The notes below the pieces were generated by a model that worked only from the letters and a program-made list of their open reading frames with translations, was not told the DNA's origin and ran no database searches. A stretch of DNA of 64,000 nucleotides from Devosia riboflavina (GTDB taxonomy: Bacteria > Pseudomonadota > Alphaproteobacteria > Rhizobiales > Devosiaceae): contig NZ_JQGC01000006.1 of NCBI RefSeq assembly GCF_000743575.1, positions 1-64,000 on the forward strand, in the 5' to 3' direction. The number at the start of each line of letters is the position of its first letter. The stretch's first letter is position 1. Shown here piece by piece: positions 3,126-56,622 of this stretch. A program made the translations under genes and the position numbers.

Positions 3126-4351
3126 GCCAGCTTCTCCTTCGCTTCGGGGTGCAGTTCGGCAGTTCTCGGCAGGAAGATAGTAAGAATACCAAGAACAGGC
3201 AGGAAGGCGCAAATCTGGAACACTGGAATAATGCCAATCCAGTCGGCCAGCGCCCCCATGGCGGCCGCACCAAGGGCGCCGATACCAAAGGCAAAGCCGA
3301 AGACGAAGCCGGCAATCATGCCGACCTTACCCGGCACCAGTTCCTGAGCATAAACCACCATGGCCGAGAAGGCCGACGAGAGAACGAGGCCCGTCATGAC
3401 GCTCATGGCGGCAGTGCCGTAGAGATCGAGATAGGGCAGCAGCAGCGTAAAGGGCAGGGCGCCGAGGATCGAAACCCAGATCACCGAGAGACGGCCATAA
3501 CGGTCGCCGATCGGCCCACCGATAAACGTGCCCGCAGCCACCGAGCCGAGGAACAGGAAGAGATAGAGCTGCGCTTCCGGCGCCGACAAACTGAACTTTT
3601 CCATGAGGAAAAAGGCGTAATAGCTTTTAAGGCCTTCGATATAGATGAACTTGCTAAGCAGCAGCGCACCGATGACAACGAAGGCGACGATAAGCCGATT
3701 GCGCGACAGCGCCGGCTTCTTGTGCATCACGGCGGGGCGCGTTGCCGCCTGCCGCTGGTGCTCCACGAACCACCGGCCGACATAGGTGAGCAGCGCAATA
3801 CCGGCAAAGCCGGCTATCAGGAACCATGCGGTGGTCTGCTGGCCCATGGGAATGAGGATGAGCGCCGCGGCCAACGGGCCAAAAGCGGTGCCGAGATTGC
3901 CCCCGACCTGGAATAGCGATTGGGCAAAGCCAAGCTTGCCGCCCGAAGCCATGCGCGCCACGCGCGACGCTTCCGGATGGAACAGCGCCGAACCCGTGCC
4001 CATCACCACAGCGGCGACAAAGAGCCAGGTAAAGCCATTGGCAAAGGCGAGGCCCAACACGCCGATGGTAACGATGGTGAGCGAGAGGGCGAGGCTATAG
4101 GGATTGGGCCGGAGATCACCGCGCAGCCCGAAGATCGGCTGCAGGAAGCAGGCGGTGATCTGCTGGCCGAGGGTAAGCAGGCCGATCTGCAGATAATTGA
4201 GCCCGTAATTGTCCTTGAGCAGCGGATAGAGCGCCGGTAGCAGAAACTGCAACAGGTCATTGAGGAGATGCGCCCCGCTAACGGCAAAGATGATGGTCAG
4301 GGCGGTTTGGTGGCCCGCCGTTGCGGCAGGGCTGCTCGTTTGCGTAGTCAT
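3122..4351 (-). CDS. MFS exporter, Fsr (fosmidomycin resistance) type
   Basis: 409-residue inner-membrane major facilitator protein with about 12 hydrophobic segments. The first helix segment has the HLLNDLLQFLLPALYPLL pattern of the Fsr subfamily, and GDRYGR follows helix 8 as in MFS loop 8-9. Fsr in E. coli is 406 residues, so the length matches. Family members export fosmidomycin or other small toxic compounds; the substrate here is unknown. I chose the start at MTTQTSSP because upstream codons give low-complexity, non-family sequence. The gene is followed, with a 4-bp overlap, by an SRPBCC protein. Confidence 0.82.
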   Translation of the reverse strand: MTTQTSSPAATAGHQTALTIIFAVSGAHLLNDLLQFLLPALYPLLKDNYGLNYLQIGLLTLGQQITACFLQPIFGLRGDLRPNPYSLALSLTIVTIGVLGLAFANGFTWLFVAAVVMGTGSALFHPEASRVARMASGGKLGFAQSLFQVGGNLGTAFGPLAAALILIPMGQQTTAWFLIAGFAGIALLTYVGRWFVEHQRQAATRPAVMHKKPALSRNRLIVAFVVIGALLLSKFIYIEGLKSYYAFFLMEKFSLSAPEAQLYLFLFLGSVAAGTFIGGPIGDRYGRLSVIWVSILGALPFTLLLPYLDLYGTAAMSVMTGLVLSSAFSAMVVYAQELVPGKVGMIAGFVFGFAFGIGALGAAAMGALADWIGIIPVFQICAFLPVLGILTIFLPRTAELHPEAKEKLA

Positions 4352-42108: not shown

Positions 42109-43311
42109 CTAACCTTGCCCGTTTTCGGCGGAACGAACCGGGAAGGTGTCTAACCCGACAACAGTGCTTTGGCCAGCATTTCGATAGGCCATTTGCACGG
42201 CGTCGGTCATATCCTTGAGCATGCCGCGGCGCTTCGCCCGGCGCTGATAATGCTCGGTCATGGTCTCGCTGCCATGGCCCAGAAGGTGCTTCACCTGCTG
42301 CGGCTCATATCCGCATTCAGCGAGAACAGTTGCCACGCCATGCCGCGCGCCATGGAACGTGATGCCGGGGGCGACCTTCTTGGCCTCCTCAACTTCGTCG
42401 CGCCATTTCCCCCATGAAGTCCTGAACCCATCCGAGGTCCATGCCTTGCCCCGTGTGTTGACGAACATCGTCATCACCAGGTCTTGGATATCCTCGCGAG
42501 AGTTCTTCGCGGCCGCCTTCCGGCGCCGCTCCTCCCATAGCGCCTCCCGCCATGCGTTGTAGCGCTTCAGGATTGCCCAGAGATCGTCACAGACGGGCAA
42601 TTCGAGCGCCCGGCGGGTCTTGCTCGTCGTGAGGCTCAAAAGCCGCTCAGTGATCGCGCCCTTTGACATTTTGATGATGTCGCCCTCGCGCAATCCCAGA
42701 TAGGCGGCCATTGCTATTGGTGCTGCCAGATGGATAGGCGCGGCAAGAATGGTGACGGCTTCCTCTGGCATCCACGGACGGTTCGCATCGGGTAGGTCCG
42801 TAGGTCTTGCGACGGAAGAGATGTCGGAAACCGGATTGCTCTGACAGTGCCCATACTCCACGCCGTAGGCGAAAACTTTGCTGAGCGTGATCAGTAGCTG
42901 ATTGGCATGCTTGAAACCGCTTAGCTCGCTCGCAATGTCTCGCAACTCCGTAATCACCTTAGGCTTGAAGCGATCAAGCATGTGGTTTTGCACGTCACCT
43001 AGCGAGTCGAATATCCGCTGATAGTCCTTCTGGGTTCTCTCCCTCAGGCCTTTCCAATGGGCCGACTTCTCCTGGTATTCTGCGATCAGGACGCGCAGCG
43101 TGCCGGCGCGCATGGCGTGGGGCTTGTAGAGGGCATCGAGGCGGGCGACTTCGGCGGCCAACTGCGCACCGGTCAGGCTGGGATCAATAGCCACCTGCGG
43201 ACAGCCCTTGCGACGGTAGTAGCGCCTGAGCTTACCGTGCCGGTCGGTGTATTGCTTTATGCCCACGATCTTTACCAGCACGGAAGGCGGCTCCGATGAT
43301 GTCACTGTCAT
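42109..43311 (-). CDS. int: Phage integrase (tyrosine recombinase)
   Basis: 400-residue site-specific recombinase. Catalytic residues: Arg near 207 (AYLGLREGD), HxxR near 319-322 (FHGARHG), His near 343 (LLGHGSETM) and Tyr near 353 (TEHYQRR). The N-terminal half is a core-binding SAM-like domain. It probably recombines at the adjacent tRNA-Trp. An excisionase-like gene overlaps its start by 80 bp in another frame. Confidence 0.95.
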   Translation of the reverse strand: MTVTSSEPPSVLVKIVGIKQYTDRHGKLRRYYRRKGCPQVAIDPSLTGAQLAAEVARLDALYKPHAMRAGTLRVLIAEYQEKSAHWKGLRERTQKDYQRIFDSLGDVQNHMLDRFKPKVITELRDIASELSGFKHANQLLITLSKVFAYGVEYGHCQSNPVSDISSVARPTDLPDANRPWMPEEAVTILAAPIHLAAPIAMAAYLGLREGDIIKMSKGAITERLLSLTTSKTRRALELPVCDDLWAILKRYNAWREALWEERRRKAAAKNSREDIQDLVMTMFVNTRGKAWTSDGFRTSWGKWRDEVEEAKKVAPGITFHGARHGVATVLAECGYEPQQVKHLLGHGSETMTEHYQRRAKRRGMLKDMTDAVQMAYRNAGQSTVVGLDTFPVRSAENGQG

Positions 43312-43507: not shown

Positions 43508-43827
43508 TTATTCGCCTCCCCCAAGCAATCGCCAGAGAGCAGTGCGGATGGCTCAAGAGAGCCAACCAGTATCCGCCTGCGGTAAAGCTGGGCCAGCGCA
43601 TTTGCAGCCGTCCCTTCCTGGTCCTCGGCGAGCGACACCGGGTATTTGTCGCCCAGCACCAACAGAAGTTCTTCCGCCTGGTTGCGGCGCGGGAGCAGCG
43701 TCACGAACTCGGGGACCACGCGCTCATCGAGCAGGACCACCTGAACGTGCTCGTCCTGCAGGATGCTGAGACAACTGTTCTGGTCGATCCGGACGAGCAC
43801 TGCTGGCACCATCGGAGCGGCACTCAT
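43498..43827 (-). CDS. Hypothetical phage protein
   Basis: 109 residues (PMVPAVLVRIDQNSCLSILQ, later NALAQLYRRRILVGSLEPS). Start overlaps the HD-domain gene stop by ATGA, and its end overlaps the excisionase start by 10 bp. No motif recognised. Confidence 0.65.
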   Translation of the reverse strand: MSAAPMVPAVLVRIDQNSCLSILQDEHVQVVLLDERVVPEFVTLLPRRNQAEELLLVLGDKYPVSLAEDQEGTAANALAQLYRRRILVGSLEPSALLSGDCLGEANKCD

Positions 43828-44429
43828 AGCTTGCCACCCAGTTCTTCGTACCGCTGAAGGAAAGCCTCTGCTGCAACATCAGGCGCCCATGGGATGATCT
43901 TGAACGAATAGGGCTGCGCGCCTCTAGACCATTCCCATTCTTCACCACCCCATCGCATCAGATCGCGCCGCTCAGTTGCGAGCATGCGAAGATCCATCAG
44001 CTTGATTGCGTCTGGGTCTGCGATAGCAACACCGAAGCGTGCTGCATTCGCAGCCTCGCAGCGCTTCTCGACAGTCTTATACTCAGGGCAAAGCGACTTC
44101 AGGGGGCCCGTCATGTCGCCACACACCGGTTCGCCAAGCTCATGCATCAGGAAGTCGTGTGCCAGATCAAGACGGTCATCGTCTTCCGCCTGATAGCTCC
44201 CACGAACGCAGTGTTCGGCCACGCTATAGAAGACGCGTCGCTGAAGGATCGGGCTCCAACATTGGCCTGCAAAGCGACAAGCATAGGCAAGGCCGTAGGC
44301 TACATCCTCAATAGTAATCTCGGACGTCTCGGGAGCCTCGAAATCGTAATAGGTGCCGGATCCGAGCAAGATCGTCGGTCCTTTGATCCTACGAATGGAC
44401 GTCTGCTTCATCTCGTCGATCGTTGCCAT
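43824..44429 (-). CDS. HD-domain phosphohydrolase, YfbR-like nucleotidase type
   Basis: 201-residue metal-dependent phosphohydrolase. The HD signature is visible as FYSVAEHCVRG and LAHDFLMHELGEPVCGD, the YfbR/phage nucleotidase pattern, where metal is held by His...His-Asp...Asp. Phage members act on deoxynucleotides and supply replication precursors. Start has GGGAGAAG upstream. One-base overlap with the J-domain gene stop. Confidence 0.82.
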   Translation of the reverse strand: MATIDEMKQTSIRRIKGPTILLGSGTYYDFEAPETSEITIEDVAYGLAYACRFAGQCWSPILQRRVFYSVAEHCVRGSYQAEDDDRLDLAHDFLMHELGEPVCGDMTGPLKSLCPEYKTVEKRCEAANAARFGVAIADPDAIKLMDLRMLATERRDLMRWGGEEWEWSRGAQPYSFKIIPWAPDVAAEAFLQRYEELGGKL

Positions 44430-46166: not shown

Positions 46167-47261
46167 TCACGCTACCACCGTGATTTTCTCGGCCGCTCGA
46201 GTCACCGCCGTGTAGAGGTGACGATCGCGGTCATCGCGGAAGACGGTGCTCTCGTCGAAGAGATAGACGTTTTCCCATTGGCTCCCCTGGGCCTTGTGGA
46301 CCGTCAGCGCGTAGCCGAAGTAGAACTCGTCGTACCGGCGTCGATCCTTCCAATCGAACTCCTCTTCCCGGCCCTGGAACCACTTTTCGTGAGTGAAGAC
46401 CAAGGCGTCACCGGCGCGTGCGCCAGCGTCGTCTGGGCGAAGCAAAAGCTCCATATTGCCGCGACCTTTGGGGAAGGTCTGCTTTACGAGCCATAACTGG
46501 CCGTTGAGGAGGTTCTTCTGGTGATTGTTCCGCAGGCAAACGAGGCGGTCGCCCGGCACAGGCTCGCGGTGCGGCATCCCCTTCAGTTGACGGATGCGAT
46601 CATTGTAGATGATGCGGGTGGCGTTCTTGCCGCATAGCACCTGGTCGGCAGTCAGAACGTCATCGCGGTCGACATTGGCTGCGCGGATCACCTTGCTCTC
46701 GCCATAGGTGCCGAAATCGAGCCCGTTGCCCTCTCGAATGTCCATCGACATGCGGATGATCGGATTGTCGGCGGCCTGACGGTGGATCTCGGTGAGCATG
46801 ATGTCTGGCCGGACGTCGGTGAAATAGCCGGCGTCCTTGACTGGCGGTAGCTGGAACGGATCGCCCAGCACCAGAACCTTTTTCCCGAATGAGAGGAGGT
46901 CGCGCGCCAGCTCGGCGCCGACCATCGACACCTCGTCGATGACCACGAGATCCGCGTCGACTATTTCACTATCGGGGTTGAGGACGAACTTCGGCTCCCC
47001 GCCGATTTCGTTGACCATTGTGTAGATAAGGCTGTGGATCGTGCTGGCGCCGAAACAGCCACGCTTGCGCATCACCAAGGCGGCCTTGCCTGTGAAGGCG
47101 GCGAATACGACCGTGTTCACCTCTTCGGCCAGGTGCACCGCGAGCGTTGACTTGCCGGTACCAGCCCAGCCGAACAGCCGGAATACCTGCTGTCCCTGCG
47201 GGTCACGTAGCCAGGTCGACACCTGCTTCAGGGCGCCGTCTTGCTGGGGAGACCACTGCAT
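46167..47261 (-). CDS. RecD/Dda-like superfamily 1 helicase
   Basis: 364-residue ATPase. Walker A GWAGTGKSTLAVHL, motif II VVIDEVSMVG, motif III LVLGDPFQLPPV, motif V-like YALTVHKAQGSQWENVYLF and motif VI YTAVTRAAEKITVV are in the SF1 order, as in RecD and phage T4 Dda. A 5'-3' helicase for recombination or replication is likely. Start ATG 47261 overlaps the previous stop (TAATG). Confidence 0.87.
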   Translation of the reverse strand: MQWSPQQDGALKQVSTWLRDPQGQQVFRLFGWAGTGKSTLAVHLAEEVNTVVFAAFTGKAALVMRKRGCFGASTIHSLIYTMVNEIGGEPKFVLNPDSEIVDADLVVIDEVSMVGAELARDLLSFGKKVLVLGDPFQLPPVKDAGYFTDVRPDIMLTEIHRQAADNPIIRMSMDIREGNGLDFGTYGESKVIRAANVDRDDVLTADQVLCGKNATRIIYNDRIRQLKGMPHREPVPGDRLVCLRNNHQKNLLNGQLWLVKQTFPKGRGNMELLLRPDDAGARAGDALVFTHEKWFQGREEEFDWKDRRRYDEFYFGYALTVHKAQGSQWENVYLFDESTVFRDDRDRHLYTAVTRAAEKITVVA

Positions 47262-47983
47262 TAGGCAGTCCTCGCCAACTGGTCGATGTTGCCGTGCTCG
47301 ACGGTGAAGGTGTAGGCGGCGACCCAAGGGTTTCCGTACCAGGAGCCGTCCTGTGTGGTCGCATCCATTTCACCGTTTACGTAGGCCCAAAGAACGCTGT
47401 AGGCGGTCCTCGCCGATGAGCCGACACACCACTCGTCGTCTTTGACTTTGACGCCAAACTGCTCGTTGCGATCGGTGAAATCGGTCTTGGCGATGCCCTC
47501 AGCCAAGGCATCGGCCTCGCTGATATCCTGCAGCCGCTCGACCCGCACATCGGTGACGGTGAGTGTCATGCGAGAGGCCCAGCGGGGCATGTGCATGGCC
47601 TGCCGATGCTTGCCCAACCAAAGGTCTGTCGGTTCGTCCGCCAGGTAGCGGAGGGCACATTCCTTTTGTCGAAGGACCGGACCGCCGCGTTTCGAGTTCG
47701 CCGGCGCCCAATCGTCGAATACGCGCTGCACCTTCCAAGCTTCACGGACATAGAGCCGGTCGCCAGGCTGGATGCTGCACTTCACCAGCACCTGCAAGTT
47801 GAGGGTCTGGTCATGGAACGCAAAGTGGGGAGCGCCCGGCCCGGAGACGATGCCAAGAAAGCGATACCGACCTGGGTTCTTGTTTATCTCGCCAAGGCCA
47901 CCGACGCGCCGCGTCTGCGTCTTGGTGCCGGCGAGCAACGCGCGGACCATGGGGCCAGAGAAGAGGAAGGGTTTGTCAGCCAT
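47261..47983 (-). CDS. Phage protein, possible ASCH-type fold
   Basis: 240 residues. The start KPFLFSGPMVRALLAGTKTQTRR is typical of a widespread phage family often given a morphogenetic or ASCH label. It has the later pair VREAWKV and MPRWASRMTLTVTDVRVERL, typical of the PUA-like ASCH fold, which binds RNA. Specific role unknown. Its start overlaps the exonuclease stop by 8 bp. Confidence 0.6.
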   Translation of the reverse strand: MADKPFLFSGPMVRALLAGTKTQTRRVGGLGEINKNPGRYRFLGIVSGPGAPHFAFHDQTLNLQVLVKCSIQPGDRLYVREAWKVQRVFDDWAPANSKRGGPVLRQKECALRYLADEPTDLWLGKHRQAMHMPRWASRMTLTVTDVRVERLQDISEADALAEGIAKTDFTDRNEQFGVKVKDDEWCVGSSARTAYSVLWAYVNGEMDATTQDGSWYGNPWVAAYTFTVEHGNIDQLARTA

Positions 47984-48713
47984 TGGACTTCTCCAGCCAC
48001 CACTGCGCCGAGAACTTGACGTCCTCGTCCATGTCGGATTTGTCGATGATCCACGAGAGGTAACCGCGGTCGCTCTGGGCGACCTCTTTGAAGGACTTGC
48101 CGCGGTGCTTGCCGAACGTGATGTTCGTCAGGAAGGCGGGCTCCTTGGAGATCTCCACCAAGCGGCCGAGCGGCCGCAGGCGCAGCAACGCTTGCAGGAT
48201 GTGCGCGGTCACGTAGGCGTCGGGCAAGGCCCGGTGCGGCGGGTCTGAGAGCTTGCGGTCGCACGGAAGTTGCAGATGATACCGCAGGCCCTGATTGGTG
48301 TGGTTCGGCGCATCCGGCCAGGCGCGCAGGGCGCACTTGTAGGTGCAAATGTAACTGCGGCCCCGGCCGTTGAAGAAATGCTGTTCGAACTTGGCGTTGT
48401 GGGCCGCGTAGACATCGGCCTCGGTCATGCCGCGAAGCAGGTGCGGGAACACCGTCATGCTCGGCGGCGCGTCGGCGACGTCGGCGTCCATGATGTGGTG
48501 GATTGCCATAGTGGCCGCCGGGATAAAGCCGGAAGGCTTGAACAGCGAAGTCCAGCAGCTTTCCATAACGATGGGGAAGCCCTCGGCGAGGAGGTCGACG
48601 TCGATGGTGCCGGCTTCGATGATCTCGGAGCTTTCATCTTCGGGGTAGCCAGTCGTCTCGAAGTCGAGGACTCGAGCGATGGCGGGGGAGTGGCTGAGGT
48701 CGAGTTCGGTCAT
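47976..48713 (-). CDS. DEDD exonuclease with ExoX-like C-terminal domain
   Basis: 245 residues. The N-terminal DnaQ-fold has VLDFETTGYP (motif I), VYAAHNAKFEQHF (motif II) and the HRALPDAYVTAHIL (motif III with catalytic Asp/His). Residues about 195-235 (ITFGKHRGKSFKEV, DRGYLSWIIDK) match the C-terminal extension of exodeoxyribonuclease X. Probably a 3'-5' exonuclease in phage recombination or repair. Confidence 0.82.
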   Translation of the reverse strand: MTELDLSHSPAIARVLDFETTGYPEDESSEIIEAGTIDVDLLAEGFPIVMESCWTSLFKPSGFIPAATMAIHHIMDADVADAPPSMTVFPHLLRGMTEADVYAAHNAKFEQHFFNGRGRSYICTYKCALRAWPDAPNHTNQGLRYHLQLPCDRKLSDPPHRALPDAYVTAHILQALLRLRPLGRLVEISKEPAFLTNITFGKHRGKSFKEVAQSDRGYLSWIIDKSDMDEDVKFSAQWWLEKSNG

Positions 48714-49090
48714 GCCACGAAACCCTGCAACCCTTTGCCCTCAGGGGACGGCTGCTGTCTAAGCGCGGCCAAGGCTGCCTCCCGAACGAAGTCGGTTGAG
48801 CTATGGCCCGGCCTAGCGGCACAGTACTCGTCGATCTGGTGCAACCAGCGACGCAAACGTGCGATCTCCCGGTCGCTCTCAGTAAGGATGTTGGTGTCGA
48901 AGTCCGAAATCGCTCCCTTCAAAGCAATGTTGATGTCCTGGAGCTGGGAGATACCCATCGGCGCGTAGAATGGGCGATCGTCCGCCGGCATTCCGCAGGT
49001 GTAACCGCGCGCCCAACAGGCGAGGTCGGAAAGACCGTCTTGGATATGGCGAGCGGCCTCGGGGGAAAGGTTGATTTGAACGCCGGCCAT
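48710..49090 (-). CDS. Hypothetical phage protein
   Basis: 126 residues (MAGVQINLSPEAARHIQDGL, later SDREIARLRRWLHQIDEYCA). No recognised family. It lies between recT and the exonuclease with overlaps on both sides (4 bp and one base), so it belongs to the recombination operon. ATG 49090 is preferred to GTG 49093. Confidence 0.65.
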   Translation of the reverse strand: MAGVQINLSPEAARHIQDGLSDLACWARGYTCGMPADDRPFYAPMGISQLQDINIALKGAISDFDTNILTESDREIARLRRWLHQIDEYCAARPGHSSTDFVREAALAALRQQPSPEGKGLQGFVA

Positions 49091-50223
49091 CACCCATTCG
49101 TCTCCGCGTCAGCGAGCACTTCGTCGTACCTGGCAAGCCAGAACCCGGTCTGAGCCTCATTGAGGCCTTCGGGCGCTTCACGCTCGGCGCCGGACAGCGC
49201 CGTTGAGGTCGCATCCCGCAGCACTTCTGGGTCTGCCTGCTCGTCGCTTGGTGGGTTCTTGGTCTTCAAGACGGCACCGGAGGAGGAGCGGATTTCGCTG
49301 AAGAGCGCCGTGATGGCGGTATGGCCATTCACGTGCTGCCCCGCGTCAGCGGGAACGATCAGCTCGCCCGCGCCGCCGCGGGAGTAGCCAGTGGGCAGGA
49401 TCCCAGACTTGATGGCACGAATGGCATACTCGCGGTTAAGCCAGTCCACTGCGCTGGGATCCGTGATCGGTGAGGCCACCGTCTCGGAAACCTCTGGCTT
49501 TCGTTCCTGGGCCTGCGGCGCCAGCTCTGCGGCAACGGTGTCAGCATTGAAGCCCGTCGATGACTGGGATGCCGCAAGGCGTGCGGCCAGGCCGGATCCA
49601 GCGGGAGGCGTGACGTCGCGCATCTGCTGCGCCCCCTCCATCTCGTCGATGTCGTAGATGCCGAGGAGGACGTCCGGGAAATGCCGGCGGCAAAGGGCCC
49701 GACCGGAGTAATAGCAAAACTGCTGGTCCGGATCGTTCTTCCACAGCGGCGAGTTCTTCGGCGTGATGACCGAAAACTTCGGCGACTTGTATTCGACCTC
49801 TTCACCTTCCAGGGTGGTCGCCGATGCGATGCAGAGGCGGTCGTTGCCTTCGCCTTCAAACCGGTACCGGATGCGCCCCTTGATCGGCGCACGGCGGAGG
49901 ATGACGGCTTGAATCAACTGGCTTTCATAGGCGAGCTGGTCGTTGACCTCATAGCTCTTGTTGGCCACGGCATAGGGCGACATGCCCCACTCGACGGCTT
50001 GGATAACGATGCCGAAGCATGCGCCAGGGTTGTTGCGCAGGTGCTTGCGGACCGCCTTGTCCGATCCGGCCATGAGATAGGCGATATCGCGCGCTTCAGC
50101 GACGGTGTGGAAGACGATGCCGCCACCTTCAGATGAAAGGCGCGTCAGGGTGTTGCGTGCCTGCGCTGGCGCCGGCAATGCGGCCTGGTCGGTGGTGGGG
50201 TGCTCGGTAAGGTCGATGGTCAT
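49090..50223 (-). CDS. recT: RecT family single-strand annealing protein
   Basis: 377 residues with a RecT core at about 30-240: VFHTVAEARDIAYLMA, VIQAVEWGMSPYAVAN, YEVNDQLAYESQLIQAVI and GEGNDRLCIASATTL. The last 130 residues are an unconserved acidic tail. It anneals single strands made by the partner exonuclease next door, and its stop-start overlaps with that gene (4 bp) fit a RecE/RecT pair. Start MTIDLTEH at 50223. Confidence 0.88.
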   Translation of the reverse strand: MTIDLTEHPTTDQAALPAPAQARNTLTRLSSEGGGIVFHTVAEARDIAYLMAGSDKAVRKHLRNNPGACFGIVIQAVEWGMSPYAVANKSYEVNDQLAYESQLIQAVILRRAPIKGRIRYRFEGEGNDRLCIASATTLEGEEVEYKSPKFSVITPKNSPLWKNDPDQQFCYYSGRALCRRHFPDVLLGIYDIDEMEGAQQMRDVTPPAGSGLAARLAASQSSTGFNADTVAAELAPQAQERKPEVSETVASPITDPSAVDWLNREYAIRAIKSGILPTGYSRGGAGELIVPADAGQHVNGHTAITALFSEIRSSSGAVLKTKNPPSDEQADPEVLRDATSTALSGAEREAPEGLNEAQTGFWLARYDEVLADAETNG

Positions 50224-51182
50224 GCAAACTGCCTTTCGAGCATGTCGAGACGCTTGTCGAAGTTCTGACGGCCGGTGTCGGGAAGGGAGAGGGGCTGGGC
50301 ATCCGCCTGGCTGGCCGTGGGGCCCGGCCAATAGCCGCTCTTCATGCAGTGCTTGAAAATCTGAATGGCGGTGAACACAGCGCGCTCACCCCGAATGATG
50401 TCTTCGTCGAGCAGGGTGCGGATCGACACTGCGTGCGTGTTGCCGGTATCGACGAAGACGAGATGGAAGCCTTCCATGTGACGGCCAAGCACGGCGGCAG
50501 AGCCCATCCCGACAAGGGCGGCCTGCACGAAGTATCCGCGGTCCATCACGGTCCAGCTCAGATCCCGGTCTTCGACGCCGGAGCTGGTGGTCTTGAGGTC
50601 GGCAAAGTCGTTGCTGTCGCCGGGGATTGCGTCGGGGCGGGCCTTCAGCCAGACCCCGTCATATTCCCAGATCAGCGAGCGTTCGATTTCGCCCGAGAGC
50701 GCGCCGCCTTGCGCGACCAGCGGCGTATTGGCCAGGCCGCAATTGGTCATGCCCTTCTGCCAATCGAGAACGCCAGCCATCCCCCTGATTTGCTCGACCT
50801 GAGTGGGTGAGAGGACGGCGCGGCCTTCCTCGGCGCGAGCTTTCAGCCAGTCCTTACAAACGGTGCGGTTGCCGTGCCACTTCTCGCCTCCCAACGTTTC
50901 GGGGCGCGCGACAAAGTGCTTGCCGAAGTCGGCTTCGCCGAGCGCAAGGTGGTGCGCAGCGCGGCCGAGAACATAAGCCTCCTTCTCCGGCTCTTCCGCA
51001 CGGTTAGGGTTGAGTTCGGAGTGCTTCCAGAATTCTGCCGGGCTGCGGAGCAGCCGACGGATGCCGGTACTGGAGAGCGATGGGCCTTCGGTACACTGGC
51101 GGTGATACCAGTCGTTCGACATGTCATAATAGCCTAGCGACGTGATGATCTCGCCGTCTTCGACTTTACGAAGTTCGGTCAT
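50220..51182 (-). CDS. RecE-like PD-(D/E)XK exonuclease
   Basis: 320 residues of the phage RecE/DUF3799 exonuclease VIII kind. Nuclease landmarks: EKEAYVLGRAAHHLAL, WLKARPDAIPG, DFADLKTTSSGVED and DRGYFVQAALVG, giving the D...(D/E)xK...Q active site. It resects double-stranded ends to supply RecT. Start ATG at 51182; upstream frame extension is implausible. Confidence 0.85.
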   Translation of the reverse strand: MTELRKVEDGEIITSLGYYDMSNDWYHRQCTEGPSLSSTGIRRLLRSPAEFWKHSELNPNRAEEPEKEAYVLGRAAHHLALGEADFGKHFVARPETLGGEKWHGNRTVCKDWLKARAEEGRAVLSPTQVEQIRGMAGVLDWQKGMTNCGLANTPLVAQGGALSGEIERSLIWEYDGVWLKARPDAIPGDSNDFADLKTTSSGVEDRDLSWTVMDRGYFVQAALVGMGSAAVLGRHMEGFHLVFVDTGNTHAVSIRTLLDEDIIRGERAVFTAIQIFKHCMKSGYWPGPTASQADAQPLSLPDTGRQNFDKRLDMLERQFA

Positions 51183-51189
51183 GGGTGCC

Positions 51190-52386
51190 TCAAAATTTGA
51201 TGGTGGTGTGGGGGATGCTGCCGGCGGCGATCGCGGTGATGATCTTCCACGCCTTGTCCTTGCCGATACCGGCCGCCCGCATGACAGCTTCCTCGGCATC
51301 GAGCATGATTGTGGTGCGGTGCCGCTGATCGGCCGCGCGAGCATCGGCCTCTTCTTCCTCGCGAAGACGTTGGGCTTCCGCCTCGTCCAAGACGCGCTGA
51401 GCGGCTTCGCGCTCACGCCGCTGGGCGTCTGCCTCCGCTTCGGCGGCACGCGCTTCTTCCGCGGCGACCTGTTCTACGCGCTGCCTTTCTTCGACATCAT
51501 CGAGTGATTTCAGGGCGGCCAGCTTAGCGGCCTCGGCTTCCTCGCGGCGATCGCCAAAGGATTCGTCGATGACGACCTTCTCCTGCAGCTCCCGCCGAAG
51601 GATGATTATGGGGTAGGGGCGGCCGTCTATCAGGCCGAGGCCGCAATTGACGATGTGTTTGATCTGGGCATCGACATAGGCTGCCTTGCGTTCCGCGTCC
51701 TCGCGCGCCTTCCTCTCGGCCGCCTCCGCCGCGTTGCGGCGCTCCGCCTCCTCCCTAAGACGCGCAAGTTCGATGCGCTCTTCGTCGAGATGGATCTGGC
51801 GCTGGAGGGCAGAGTTCAGGATGGCAAGGCTGGTGTCGCGTGCGTCGGAGGCGACGTCGAAGAAATCGCCGAGGTAGTCCAGATGGAGCTCGGTGTTCTG
51901 AACCTGCTTGATGCGGGCCCGCAGGGTCTCGGTCGTGTCCTCGATCGTTACCTTGCCGGCTTGCTTCAGGCCGTCGACGATGGCCTGACACTGGGTCTTC
52001 CGCTTGGCTTGCTCGGCCTCCCAGTCGTCGAGGGGCTTGCGAGCCTTGTCCCGAAGGGCATCAAGCCGGTTGCGCAACTTCCGGCGTTCAGCATTGACCG
52101 ACTGGACCTTCTTGTTCGCTTCCTGGATCAGTTCGGCGCCGGCGTCGTCGATTGCGGTCTTGGTCCGGCTGATTTTGTAGGCGAGCGAGGCCACGGCCTT
52201 GCGGCCCTTATCACTTGCCAGGTCAACTGGGGCCGTCGTGATTTCCTGCTCGATGTGAGCAAACAGCTCGTCTGCCTTGGCGGGATCGTTGAACACCAGG
52301 GCAGGGGTAGTCTCTACCAGCACGGCGATGCTGGTGGTGGCGCTCGACATGGCGCTCTCTCCGATGCTTGGGGTGGCGTCCGTCAT
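51190..52386 (-). CDS. Coiled-coil phage protein
   Basis: 398 residues. Residues about 190-260 and 285-340 are charged heptad-rich coiled coils (ERIELARLREEAERRNAAEA and similar). The N-terminal part (IAVLVETTPALVFNDPAKAD) resembles a phage family seen beside RecE/RecT genes. Its start overlaps the small membrane protein's stop by ATGA. Role unknown; maybe a scaffold for the recombination proteins. A second start at MSSATTSI is possible. Confidence 0.65.
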   Translation of the reverse strand: MTDATPSIGESAMSSATTSIAVLVETTPALVFNDPAKADELFAHIEQEITTAPVDLASDKGRKAVASLAYKISRTKTAIDDAGAELIQEANKKVQSVNAERRKLRNRLDALRDKARKPLDDWEAEQAKRKTQCQAIVDGLKQAGKVTIEDTTETLRARIKQVQNTELHLDYLGDFFDVASDARDTSLAILNSALQRQIHLDEERIELARLREEAERRNAAEAAERKAREDAERKAAYVDAQIKHIVNCGLGLIDGRPYPIIILRRELQEKVVIDESFGDRREEAEAAKLAALKSLDDVEERQRVEQVAAEEARAAEAEADAQRREREAAQRVLDEAEAQRLREEEEADARAADQRHRTTIMLDAEEAVMRAAGIGKDKAWKIITAIAAGSIPHTTIKF

Positions 52387-52547
52387 GGCTGAACCACCAA
52401 AACGAGGACAAAGAGGGCGACGAGGAAAGCCAGCACCGCCCAGTAGTAGGGAGGAGCGTCAGCCGACAGCACCCAAAGGGCGTAGACGAAGAAGGCCGCG
52501 AGACCGGCACTTGCGCCCCAAGCGATAATCGTCATTGGGCGGTTCAT
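52383..52547 (-). CDS. 54-residue two-helix membrane protein
   Basis: Reads MNRPMTIIAWGASAGLAAFF, then VYALWVLSADAPPYYWAVLA and a hydrophobic C-terminus ending VVQP, i.e. two membrane helices joined by a short loop. It overlaps the acyl carrier gene stop and the coiled-coil gene start by 4 bp each. Too short for most gene callers; the tight coupling on both sides supports it. Role unknown. Confidence 0.72.
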   Translation of the reverse strand: MNRPMTIIAWGASAGLAAFFVYALWVLSADAPPYYWAVLAFLVALFVLVLVVQP

Positions 52548-52783
52548 GACTTGCCGCCGATCAAGCGCTCGACGTCCTCGACGACAGCTTCAATGGTGGT
52601 GTCGACCGTCCAGCCGTCATCAGGGATCTGGATTTGAAACTCGACCTCGATCTCCATAAGCACATCGAGAATGTCGAGGCTGTCCATTTGGAGGTCGCCC
52701 AGTGTCGTCGAGCCCGGCTTGGAATCGGCGGAGTGCGCGAGAATTTCGAGGATGCGGTTCTGGTTCGGGGTTAGGGTGCTCAT
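52544..52783 (-). CDS. Acyl carrier protein-like, prophage-borne
   Basis: 79-residue acidic protein with the ACP helix layout and the phosphopantetheine site DSL at Ser35 (LGDLQMDSLDILDVLMEIEV). Helix III and the tail follow (FQIQIPDDGWTVDTTIEAVV). The unusual point is its place in a phage recombination operon, not beside fatty acid genes. It is coupled on both sides by 4-bp overlaps. Could feed acyl-transfer to a membrane or protein target; the host's phosphopantetheine transferase would be needed. Confidence 0.78.
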   Translation of the reverse strand: MSTLTPNQNRILEILAHSADSKPGSTTLGDLQMDSLDILDVLMEIEVEFQIQIPDDGWTVDTTIEAVVEDVERLIGGKS

Positions 52784-53274
52784 TTCGGCGCTCCGACGAA
52801 CATGGCGAGCGTCGCGGCGACTGGCATTTCCTTCAATGCAGGGCTTGCAGCAGCCGCCACCCGCTCAAGGGCTTTCCCCGTCGTCATCATCGCTATGGAA
52901 GCCATCACCGACACCTGGGCGGTAAACTTCGCCTGTGTCTGACGCGGCAAGCGGGAGAAGTCCGCCTTCATCTGCCGCTCAAACGACCGGTTCGCCTTGC
53001 GCCGGATTGCCTCAGCGGCATTACCGCCTTCGGCAACGATCTCTTCGTCGTTGAGACGCTTCACGCCTTCGCCGATGAGGGTGCCGAACACCATTCCTTC
53101 GTCGCGAAGAAGCCGGCGCAGGGCTGTTCGCAGGGGGCCTGATGACCCGTCGACGTCACGAGAAATCACGGCACCCAGTTCTTTGTAGGTGAACGTCTGG
53201 CCGACAGTCGCCGATGACATGTGCTGCATCAGCAAGCGCGCATCAGCGGACATCTGGAAGGTTGGGCTGGTCAT
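52780..53274 (-). CDS. Hypothetical phage protein
   Basis: 164 residues, helix-rich, beginning MTSPTFQMSADARLLMQHMS, with YKELGAVISRDVDGSSGPLRTA suggesting a winged HTH near residues 25-75. Start follows AAGGAGACCCC and a leader similar to that upstream of the gene at 53350. It overlaps the ACP start by ATGA. Possibly DNA-binding. Confidence 0.65.
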   Translation of the reverse strand: MTSPTFQMSADARLLMQHMSSATVGQTFTYKELGAVISRDVDGSSGPLRTALRRLLRDEGMVFGTLIGEGVKRLNDEEIVAEGGNAAEAIRRKANRSFERQMKADFSRLPRQTQAKFTAQVSVMASIAMMTTGKALERVAAAASPALKEMPVAATLAMFVGAPK

Positions 53275-53349: not shown

Positions 53350-53922
53350 CTAGACCGTGGACCACTGGAAGCCGGTGACGTGGAAGCGGCCGAGGAAGCC
53401 GCCCTTCTCCGGGCGGAAGCGGCCAATACCGACGAGGCGTCCAGCCTCAGTGATCGCCTGTTCGAAAATCGCTTCGGGGATGATGTCGTCGAGGATCGCA
53501 AAGCGAGCGACCGCCTCGTATTCCTTGATGATCGGGAAGCGGCGACGGACGCGCTTTCCCGACCCGCGAACGCCGTCGGCATTCGCCCAAATATCAATCT
53601 GTTCAAGATCGTCTTTATGGATGCCGAGCGAGACGTCGGCCTCGCATATCTGGCCGGCTGTGAAGAACTTGGTGTAAGTGGACTTGCCGCGACCCGGGAT
53701 GCCGATGTTGAGGCGCTTCACCGCTTCGTCCACGGACATCTTGAGTGCCATCGCGGGGATGCACACGATGCCACTGCTATCGTAGGTGGCTTTCTCGCGC
53801 CAAAGACGCTTGTCCCAACCGTCCGCGCTTTCTTTCTCGAGCTTCGGAAACTGATCCGGGTCGACCGCCTTCGATTGGCTGTAGGGAGTGGCGGACTTAA
53901 TGGTGACGAGACAGATTTTCAC
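53350..53922 (-). CDS. Hypothetical phage protein
   Basis: 190 residues (MKICLVTIKSATPYSQSKAV, FQWSTV end), no family I can name. Contains GIPGRGKSTYTKFF, which resembles but does not match a Walker A motif. GTG start behind AGGAGGTC; the same upstream leader (GCATCGCAACAGCCA) appears before the gene at 52780. It is preceded by the repeat block. Confidence 0.6.
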   Translation of the reverse strand: MKICLVTIKSATPYSQSKAVDPDQFPKLEKESADGWDKRLWREKATYDSSGIVCIPAMALKMSVDEAVKRLNIGIPGRGKSTYTKFFTAGQICEADVSLGIHKDDLEQIDIWANADGVRGSGKRVRRRFPIIKEYEAVARFAILDDIIPEAIFEQAITEAGRLVGIGRFRPEKGGFLGRFHVTGFQWSTV

Positions 53923-54344: not shown

Positions 54345-54743
54345 TCACGCCACCTCTCCCACAAAACGGGTCCAGAGGGCGTCGAGCCAGCCGTGCATGA
54401 CAGCAATCATCGCCTCGTAGGGGCGAAGCTCTGTCCACGCCGAGCGATCAGCGACGACCCCGGGGGCGGACGAGCGGGCGGCATTCCAAGCAGTGTCGAG
54501 CCGCCGCTGGTGGACGATGATGGCGGCGGTGAGCACCGCCATCGAATGTGTTGGTGGGAAGTAGGGGGCGGGAGACGCGACAGCGGAAAAGAGCTTTGCC
54601 AAGATCGCATCTTCATCGACTGCGCCTACGCCATCACATGGCGGCGCTGCCAGCGGAAAGTCGGTAGGGGCGCGGCCGTGCCACTCCTCAAATGCCTTGA
54701 GGAAAGACGCTTGGGCCGCCGAGGATGGTGGTAGGGGCTGCAT
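54345..54743 (-). CDS. Hypothetical phage protein, first gene of the leftward operon
   Basis: 132 residues (MQPLPPSSAAQASFLKAFEE, later MAVLTAAIIVHQRRLDTAWN). No family recognised. It lies directly behind the proposed left promoter with GGAGCAACCG as ribosome site, so it would be among the first genes expressed when the prophage is induced. Candidate early regulator or antiterminator, on position only. Confidence 0.6.
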   Translation of the reverse strand: MQPLPPSSAAQASFLKAFEEWHGRAPTDFPLAAPPCDGVGAVDEDAILAKLFSAVASPAPYFPPTHSMAVLTAAIIVHQRRLDTAWNAARSSAPGVVADRSAWTELRPYEAMIAVMHGWLDALWTRFVGEVA

Positions 54744-55586: not shown

Positions 55587-55834
55587 TCGATCTCCGGTAT
55601 CTCGCCTTCAGAAAATAGCGTGACCGGCTCCCCGAATTCACCGTTGATCAGGTCAGCCTCGCGGGACCAAGCGATCACGCCTTCATATTTTCCGCTCGCC
55701 CAAAGTAGCCTTGCCTGTTGCTTCGCTCCAGATTCGGACTGAGCTTCCCGGGCTTCAAATGCGGGCCGAAGTTCGCCCTCTTCGTCACGAGCAAACGCTA
55801 CATAAACGATGAGTTTCGTTGGCAAAGGGCTCAA
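55583..55834 (-). CDS. Small hypothetical protein coupled to the repressor
   Basis: 83 residues from TTG 55834, whose TTGA overlaps the repressor stop; GGAAG lies 6 bp before it. A GTG at 55894 would give 103 residues and overlap the repressor by 64 bp. Sequence LPTKLIVYVAFARDEEGELR, later WASGKYEGVIAWSREADLIN is unfamiliar and may be a small alpha/beta domain. Confidence 0.55.
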   Translation of the reverse strand: MSPLPTKLIVYVAFARDEEGELRPAFEAREAQSESGAKQQARLLWASGKYEGVIAWSREADLINGEFGEPVTLFSEGEIPEIE

Positions 55835-56622
55835 TTGATTCTTCCAAATCTCCAGAGCACCGCTCCAATAATTTGGACCTCGTCCAAATTCCACTCGCGG
55901 GGAGCGTGTTTGGGGTTGTCCGAAATAATCCGAACGGTCTGGATTTCGTCGTTAGGCTTGCTCGTAAGCTCGAGGCGCTTGATGACAATCCCGCCAAAGG
56001 CGTCTGTGAGAGCATAGATCCCGTCCGGCGAGGGAAGGCGATGCTTCGTGTTCACCACAACGAACTCCCCATCCAGAACGGTGGGCGACATGCTGTCGCC
56101 CGAAGACGGAAGTATCGCTAAGTCCTCAGGGCTAACGCCTGCGGCCCGGAGTAGTGCAAGGGGAAAGCGCCAAAAGTCGCTTACCGCTTCGGCTGAGAAG
56201 GTCATTCCATTGCGGCCGGGCACTCCTTCGTGGACCAGCGTTAGGCCGCCCCCGCCCATTCCAGCAATGACATCGATCTGAGGGACAGTGCCTTCGGGTA
56301 TGCCTTGGCGGCCCGTTTCAGAGCCGACTGTCATTCCCTCGGGCAGGGCTGCATCGACTGCATCCGGGTCGAAGCTCTCAAAGACTCTAGGTCGCGGGGC
56401 CCGGGGCATCTCCTGTTCGTCGTAAAGATAGAGAACATCGACCTGCAAGGATCTAGCCAGAACGTCCGTGTAGGTGGGGTTCTTCGTTACACCCATCTCA
56501 ACCGCGGCAATTGCCTGCTGTGTCTTTCCTACACGTTTGGCCAGCTCTTGCTGAGATAGCCCCATTGCTTCTCTGGCCTGGATTACACGTTTCGGATTTA
56601 TCGATCTCTGAGACTTTTTCAT
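55831..56622 (-). CDS. CI-type repressor, self-cleaving (LexA/S24)
   Basis: 263 residues. HTH at about 15-60 (MGLSQQELAKRVGKTQQAIA). Then a linker with the LexA-like cleavage pair in IAGMGGGG, the catalytic Ser in SSGDSMSPTVLDGEFVVV and Lys in GIVIKRLEL. Stress-activated RecA would trigger self-cleavage, so the prophage is likely SOS-inducible. It should bind operators next to the left and right promoters. Two coupled genes follow. Confidence 0.9.
   Translation of the reverse strand: MKKSQRSINPKRVIQAREAMGLSQQELAKRVGKTQQAIAAVEMGVTKNPTYTDVLARSLQVDVLYLYDEQEMPRAPRPRVFESFDPDAVDAALPEGMTVGSETGRQGIPEGTVPQIDVIAGMGGGGLTLVHEGVPGRNGMTFSAEAVSDFWRFPLALLRAAGVSPEDLAILPSSGDSMSPTVLDGEFVVVNTKHRLPSPDGIYALTDAFGGIVIKRLELTSKPNDEIQTVRIISDNPKHAPREWNLDEVQIIGAVLWRFGRIN

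Follow-up and report, generated by a model that had tools for sequence, protein, structure and literature searches.

An acyl carrier protein gene in the recombination operon of a Devosia riboflavina prophage

The initial 64 kb of a Devosia riboflavina contig of 387 kb (genome size 5.05 Mb) were analysed; this whole stretch is referred to as the window. Positions 52544-52783 of its minus strand were found to encode a genuine acyl carrier protein (ACP) of type II, 79 aa in length, and not a chance open reading frame. The gene and its phosphopantetheine serine are real, its pairing with a small membrane protein is not general, and its context in a prophage recombination operon recurs in a few lineages. 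Phage ACPs have already been published and are present in PHROGs; their recurrence inside a recombination operon is what this analysis adds.

Identity of the acyl carrier protein

The protein matched PF00550 with 24.3 bits (gathering score 20.8) and the phrog_5934 'acyl carrier protein' profile with an E-value of 6.3e-12. The match to TIGR00517, the housekeeping AcpP model (PRK00982 was also named), had an E-value of 5e-11, yet its 42.2 bits stayed below the cut-off of 70.45, and the score was under the cut-off in each of the 15 NCBIfam models matched. The protein is therefore an ACP, but not a housekeeping AcpP. A sequence search of the PDB matched ACPs, with a best E-value of 7e-7. In the AlphaFold model (pLDDT 83.4) helices span residues 6-18, 28-31, 35-49, and 64-76, and helix III is absent; the best 50 Foldseek matches were nearly all carrier proteins, with query TM-scores of 0.59-0.76 and none at E <= 0.001.

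A preliminary description, made from the sequence alone, had announced an ACP with Ser35 in a DSL motif, and the gene was found where it had been placed, with Ser35 in MDSLD (...DLQMDSLD...). A profile scan of IMG/VR yielded 292 ACP relatives, of which 80 were kept; after removal of 4 loci with fab genes and collapsing of near-copies, 60 viral relatives remained, some of which may still be host DNA. Serine was conserved in 59 of these 60 non-redundant relatives (60 of 61 rows with the window included), so that the conservation check proposed in the preliminary description came out in its favor; the exceptional row has tyrosine at this position in the automatic alignment.

AcpS and most acyl enzymes recognise an ACP by the face that helix II forms, and the acids of helix III serve many Fab enzymes. 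In the window ACP, helix II retains the serine and most acids, and the segment PDDGWTVD replaces the acidic helix III of AcpP. As the helix III acids are replaced, ordinary fatty-acid enzymes may not recognise this protein. The D. riboflavina genome contains two further PF00550 genes, each adjoining a ketosynthase gene, and one PF01648 gene, located outside the prophage.

The left operon of the prophage and the 54-aa membrane protein

The tailed-phage prophage begins at the tyrosine integrase gene (42109-43311, minus strand) and extends beyond the end of the window. It contains a repressor, recombination genes, primase and helicase-type domains, and terminase, portal, capsid, and tail genes, and is also present in IMG/VR as a viral record of 76.6 kb. 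Starting from the phage repressor gene (55831-56622; read as such from an HTH and an S24 peptidase domain), the minus strand carries genes for a 132-aa protein (54345-54743), a 190-aa protein (53350-53922), a 164-aa protein (52780-53274), the ACP, a 54-aa two-helix protein (52383-52547), a 398-aa protein (51190-52386), a RecE-type exonuclease VIII (50220-51182; PF12684, phrog_412), and the ssDNA-annealing protein RecT (49090-50223; PF03837, phrog_561). RecT is followed by a 127-aa gene, an ExoX/DnaQ-like exonuclease (47976-48713, minus strand; Pfam and PHROGs), a 240-aa gene, a RecD-like helicase (46167-47261, minus strand; AAA_30, UvrD_C_2), further genes, and finally the integrase.

RecE and RecT genes had been reported beside the ACP cluster, and both indeed lie downstream of it. 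The 4-bp overlaps described between the ACP and membrane protein genes, and between the latter and the gene of a coiled-coil protein (51190-52386), were also found, each being ATGA. However, the coupled run comprises four genes and not three, because the upstream 164-aa gene also shares 4 bp with the start of the ACP gene, which the preliminary description had missed. This first gene of the run is preceded by a strong ribosome-binding site (AAAGGAGA), and GC3 was 0.71-0.78 across the seven operon genes measured.

The 398-aa protein, a coiled coil by reading, belongs to the phrog_1376 family (E 2e-56), and its gene is two genes away from that of the ACP; in phages D3 and phiLM21 a phrog_1376 gene precedes the gene of the annealing protein. 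A PADLOC search of the operon genes returned a weak match to the 398-aa protein as its sole result (E 0.03). For the 164-aa protein a Pfam match to carbonic anhydrase was below the cut-off and was set aside. The 190-aa protein gave a weak match to phrog_4652 and no match in Pfam, NCBIfam, or PADLOC; its glycine-rich end is reminiscent of RAMP proteins. The 190-aa and 164-aa genes are also adjacent in two further genomes of the order (G476 and G432; L074, L075), and ACP was absent from the stretches fetched there.

Several other genes of the prophage were observed. A 201-aa protein is encoded in two prophage copies (window 43824-44429; G000:C6 74375-74980, L071:10375-10980; E 1e-106). Beyond the window, a gene for a HerA-like ATPase (G000:C6 69171-70568, L071:5171-6568) adjoins a 256-aa gene; it was recognised by the PADLOC mad8 and HerA models, and PF05872 was reported among these ORFs. 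By reading, a PemK/MazF-like toxin gene is located at 79281-79706 of G000:C6 (L071:15281-15706).

The 54-aa protein, described beforehand as a two-helix membrane protein, was likewise found as such, with two hydrophobic stretches and two helices (residues 3-29 and 34-52) in a single-sequence model. A Pfam match to P21 holin was below the cut-off and was set aside. Neither 50,697 phage records nor 296 further genomes of the order yielded a relative, a 54-aa hydrophobic query being a weak probe, and an exact-peptide scan of IMG/VR matched only the protein itself.

The preliminary description had also regarded the ACP and the membrane protein as a set and had suggested searching related prophages for their adjacency. 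This adjacency was not observed elsewhere. A membrane helix was predicted in 11 of 98 immediate same-strand neighbours of viral ACP genes, compared to 73 of all 589 locus genes (neighbours included), and small membrane proteins (<=120 aa) made up 3 of the 98 neighbours and 23 of the 589 locus genes; none of the 98 was a small two-helix protein. As these counts show no excess, there is no association between ACPs and membrane proteins among these loci. The nearest relative of the window operon, in the IMG/VR record L203 (helicase 83% identical), was informative in this respect. Its order is a homologue of the 132-aa protein (36% over 118 residues, E 8e-19), a 51-aa two-helix protein, a phrog_1376-type protein (45% over 205 residues to that of the window), RecE, RecT (phrog_561), ExoX, and helicase. 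L203 lacks the genes for the 190-aa protein, the 164-aa protein, and the ACP, and the 51-aa protein, the positional counterpart of the 54-aa protein, has no detectable similarity to the latter. The ACP therefore belongs to a block present in one operon and absent in the other, and the two-helix protein would go with the phrog_1376/RecET core instead of with the ACP. Given a two-helix gene without ACP in L203, no relatives of the 54-aa protein in the collections searched, and no excess of adjacency, we rejected the ACP and the membrane protein as a unit.

Recurrence of ACP genes in recombination operons

We searched 50 whole viral records carrying the same helicase (L260 and L272 were left out; the records may be fragments). 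Eight of them, the prophage's own record included, matched PF00550, with one ACP each, located 1.6-5.3 kb from the helicase match, always in the recombination operon and nowhere else in the record. Six of the eight form one lineage, with helicases 80-100% identical to that of L111, and the independent cases are therefore few.

The ACP occupies three different sites of the operon across records. In L111 it is downstream of RecT and upstream of ExoX; in L101 it is upstream of ExoX and downstream of a phrog_3657 gene occupying the place of RecT; and in L213-L215, L286, and L287 it precedes ExoX and follows RecT or the gene at its place. Mesorhizobium loti DSM 2626 (L362) and M. ventifaucium STM4922 likewise have an ACP before ExoX; L362 is not independent of L101, as the gene pattern is the same. 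In the IMG/VR record L204 and in L192, from the host's genus, the ACP follows a beta-clamp gene downstream of ExoX, and in L204 a phrog_85 thymidylate-synthase gene comes after it. In L106 and L126 the ACP adjoins, or is two genes from, a phrog_10477 'exonuclease' protein, and in L106 it is downstream of a RecT-like gene. A relationship of this neighbour to phrog_1376, and so to the 398-aa protein, was not borne out on closer comparison. No phrog_1376 relative was detected by phmmer in the Mesorhizobium-type loci examined.

RecT (PF03837) was matched in 7 of 52 ACP records. With the near-copy L124 dropped, the ACP was within 4 kb of RecT in three of six records, and the distances in the others were 12, 16, and 25 kb (Fisher p = 0.035 without and 0.017 with the window, uncorrected for the clustering of early genes). 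We regard this closeness as suggestive only, because a strict rule would not allow the three distant cases and early genes tend to cluster in any event.

The ExoX-like gene was detected in 11 of the family's 136 genomes. Eleven regions were fetched: in seven this gene stands without the other recombination genes of the window, in L188 and L189 recombination genes are present but an ACP is not, in L192 both are present, and among the genes called in L198 nothing matched. ACP was also absent from 42 of the 50 helicase-type viral records and from L349, a Rhizobiales MAG with other genes before a helicase relative of 82% identity. As most relatives (42/50; L188, L189, L203, L349) do without one, the ACP is dispensable. 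In many Devosiaceae genomes (L301-L354) a helicase related to that of the prophage was observed (62-73% identity); relatives of the window RecT, RecE, and ExoX were not found in the stretches fetched, of up to 9 kb on each side. These helicase relatives perhaps reflect gene exchange between phage and host.

In a phylogenetic tree that was poorly supported for the most part, the window ACP grouped with that of L204 (97/81), and the Mesorhizobium-type ACP was placed beside the host AcpP with weak support (83/72). Two ACP lineages seem to be involved, and one origin would be compatible with the tree; two are likelier, because the L101 ACP scores as an ordinary AcpP (103.5 bits against the cut-off of 92) and the window ACP does not. 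In the Mesorhizobium-type ACPs dN (0.09-0.44) was lower than dS (0.47-1.35) in 15 of 15 pairs; this lineage is under purifying selection.

Proposed role and comparison with other phage ACPs

We propose, at about even chances, that the protein is a host-loaded accessory ACP of the early recombination operon that engages host ACP partners during infection. This reading builds on the ACP fold, the serine, the operon position, the recurrence, and the lack of an acyl enzyme in the prophage, all provided by the sequence and the model. A Pfam scan of 83 prophage ORFs (10 + 74, one counted twice) detected no ketosynthase, acyltransferase, AMP-ligase, or PPTase at E <= 1e-5; a further 13 called ORFs lay outside the scan (3 split at the ends of the stretches, 8 shorter than 100 aa, 2 longer). 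PHROG scans of 189 neighbours of viral ACPs also gave no acyl enzyme among the matches listed (the first 25 of 144 and of 81 families). Having no enzymes of its own, a free-standing ACP has to act either on proteins of the host or on phage proteins of a different kind. Host partners are favored, because helix II is kept, the serine is conserved, and dN is below dS in the Mesorhizobium-type lineage. The ACP would be made on derepression of the left operon, a host AcpS-type transferase would probably load phosphopantetheine onto it, and the free-standing protein may then engage host ACP-binding enzymes or regulators and compete with or redirect the host AcpP during phage replication. Its altered helix III points to a narrower choice of partners.

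A membrane unit of ACP, membrane protein, and coiled-coil protein with a lipid- or acyl-linked function would agree with the 4-bp overlaps running through the three genes. It is nevertheless very improbable, as L203 has two-helix and phrog_1376 genes without ACP, as seven records (L101, L111, L192, L204, L213, L286, L287) have an ACP without an adjacent two-helix gene, and as membrane proteins are no commoner beside viral ACP genes than across their loci. Possible, though doubtful, is an auxiliary metabolic gene, the extra ACP boosting fatty-acid or phospholipid synthesis of the host for membrane supply or fluidity. Such a boost was proposed for Rhodobacteraceae prophages and Alteromonas phage R22Y, in passages that report no experiment (PMC8224337, PMC11705849), and the serine conserved in viral relatives and the AcpP-like score of the L101 ACP are consistent with it. 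On the other side, the prophage ORFs scanned contain no fab gene, and the window ACP has only 26-27% identity to the AcpP of its own genome, stays below the NCBIfam cut-offs for ACPs, and has lost the helix III acids.

Alternatively, the ACP could belong to the recombination machinery of the phage as a subunit or regulator, either by binding one of its proteins (the 398-aa coiled-coil protein, for instance, in analogy to the binding of the MukB coiled coil by E. coli AcpP; PMC8602292) or by coupling recombination to the acyl status of the host. This would explain why ACPs of seemingly two lineages are confined, in these records, to one operon, though at varying positions within it; it would fit the ACPs at three sites within the operon, the phrog_10477 'exonuclease' near the ACP in L106 and L126, the RecT-like gene upstream in L106, and the SbcC-like phrog_77 among 4 of 93 upstream ACP neighbours. 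We consider it improbable, since a relationship of the neighbour in L106 and L126 to the 398-aa protein was not borne out, the closeness of ACP and RecT is modest, the Mesorhizobium-type loci examined gave no phrog_1376 relative by phmmer, and most relatives of the operon lack an ACP. The protein may also act by binding alone, with no acyl chemistry, because the ACP of Serratia phage Kevin has lost the serine and both apo- and holo-AcpP stimulate the MukB ATPase, according to a section heading of PMC8602292. There is likewise a small chance that the ACP is a neutral passenger being lost, as its absence from L203, L188, and L189 would allow; its intact frame, coupled starts, and GC3 similar to that of core genes, the serine kept in nearly all viral relatives examined, and the purifying selection in the Mesorhizobium-type lineage argue against this.

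The recurrence points to a concrete site, the RecE/RecT-exonuclease-helicase operons of alphaproteobacterial temperate phages, including those of Mesorhizobium loti and M. ventifaucium. If the ACP acts on recombination, the AcpP-MukB link would extend to phages; if it acts on lipid or stringent-response partners of the host, a route of takeover would be defined.

The preliminary description had stated that known phages rarely carry ACPs. This was not supported, as phage ACPs are found in PHROGs and in print. ACPs are known from papers on Vibrio phage R16F and Alteromonas phage R22Y, an Erythrobacter phage ACP was described with its function unclear (PMC5463345), acpP was reported in eight phages in a study of Rhodobacteraceae prophages (PMC8224337), and PMC10152775 has a section on a phage ACP. 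Passages of PMC9769523 list fab genes and cite a RecT paper, with nothing further on ACP and RecT. Open-access literature screened by title and abstract start gave no tested function or recombination-operon context for phage ACPs. The window ACP itself gave weak matches in 3 of 50,697 phage records, and the related ACP L078 matched 48, several of them short fragments that lack annotation and are perhaps of host origin. IMG/VR scans with the window ACP found only itself, L005 (41%), L006 (38%), and the L204 record (36%), and a GTDB scan gave no match; when a profile of three rows was run against 397 genomes of the order, the window scored 129 bits and the next hits, read as host ACPs, at most 46. 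In other phages we observed that in the Kevin ACP (L088:3944-4216) glutamate replaces the phosphopantetheine serine and that its gene overlaps the end of a gene for a 107-aa hydrophobic protein. Pseudomonas phage HRDY3 has two adjacent, overlapping ACP genes (L093:3277-3987 and 3974-4246), one of the two ACPs being at the end of a 236-aa protein.

The host AcpP shares fold, serine, and helix II acids with the window ACP, but differs in overall sequence and has the helix III acids where the window ACP has DDGWT. The phrog_5934 and phrog_4154 ACPs (Erythrobacter phage vB_EliS-R6L, Vibrio phage eugene 12A10, Serratia phage Kevin, and others) have the ACP fold in common with it. Like the window ACP, annotated phage ACPs have the DSL serine and are encoded by a single small gene among small phage genes, with no annotated acyl enzyme adjacent (14 loci); 13 of them, when aligned, were 25-33% identical to it. 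Unlike the window, the eight such records tested had no RecT (PF03837), and among the 14 loci only the related pairs eugene/1.187.O and XbC2/GAP32 share neighbours. The ACPs of Rhodobacteraceae (PMC8224337) and Mesorhizobium prophages come, as here, from alphaproteobacterial prophages, although three Rhodobacteraceae prophages with fabG-acpP-fabF, as described in passages of that source, may be host DNA. The Mesorhizobium ACPs are in the same type of recombination operon, but that of L101, with the gene pattern of M. loti L362, is close to an ordinary AcpP and stands before ExoX, unlike the window ACP. L204 and L192 differ from the window in the position of the ACP after the beta clamp and in having no two-helix gene beside it; their operons contain relatives of the window RecE, RecT, and ExoX, and their ACPs share with the window ACP a DDxW motif, the tryptophan of which is also present in phage eugene.
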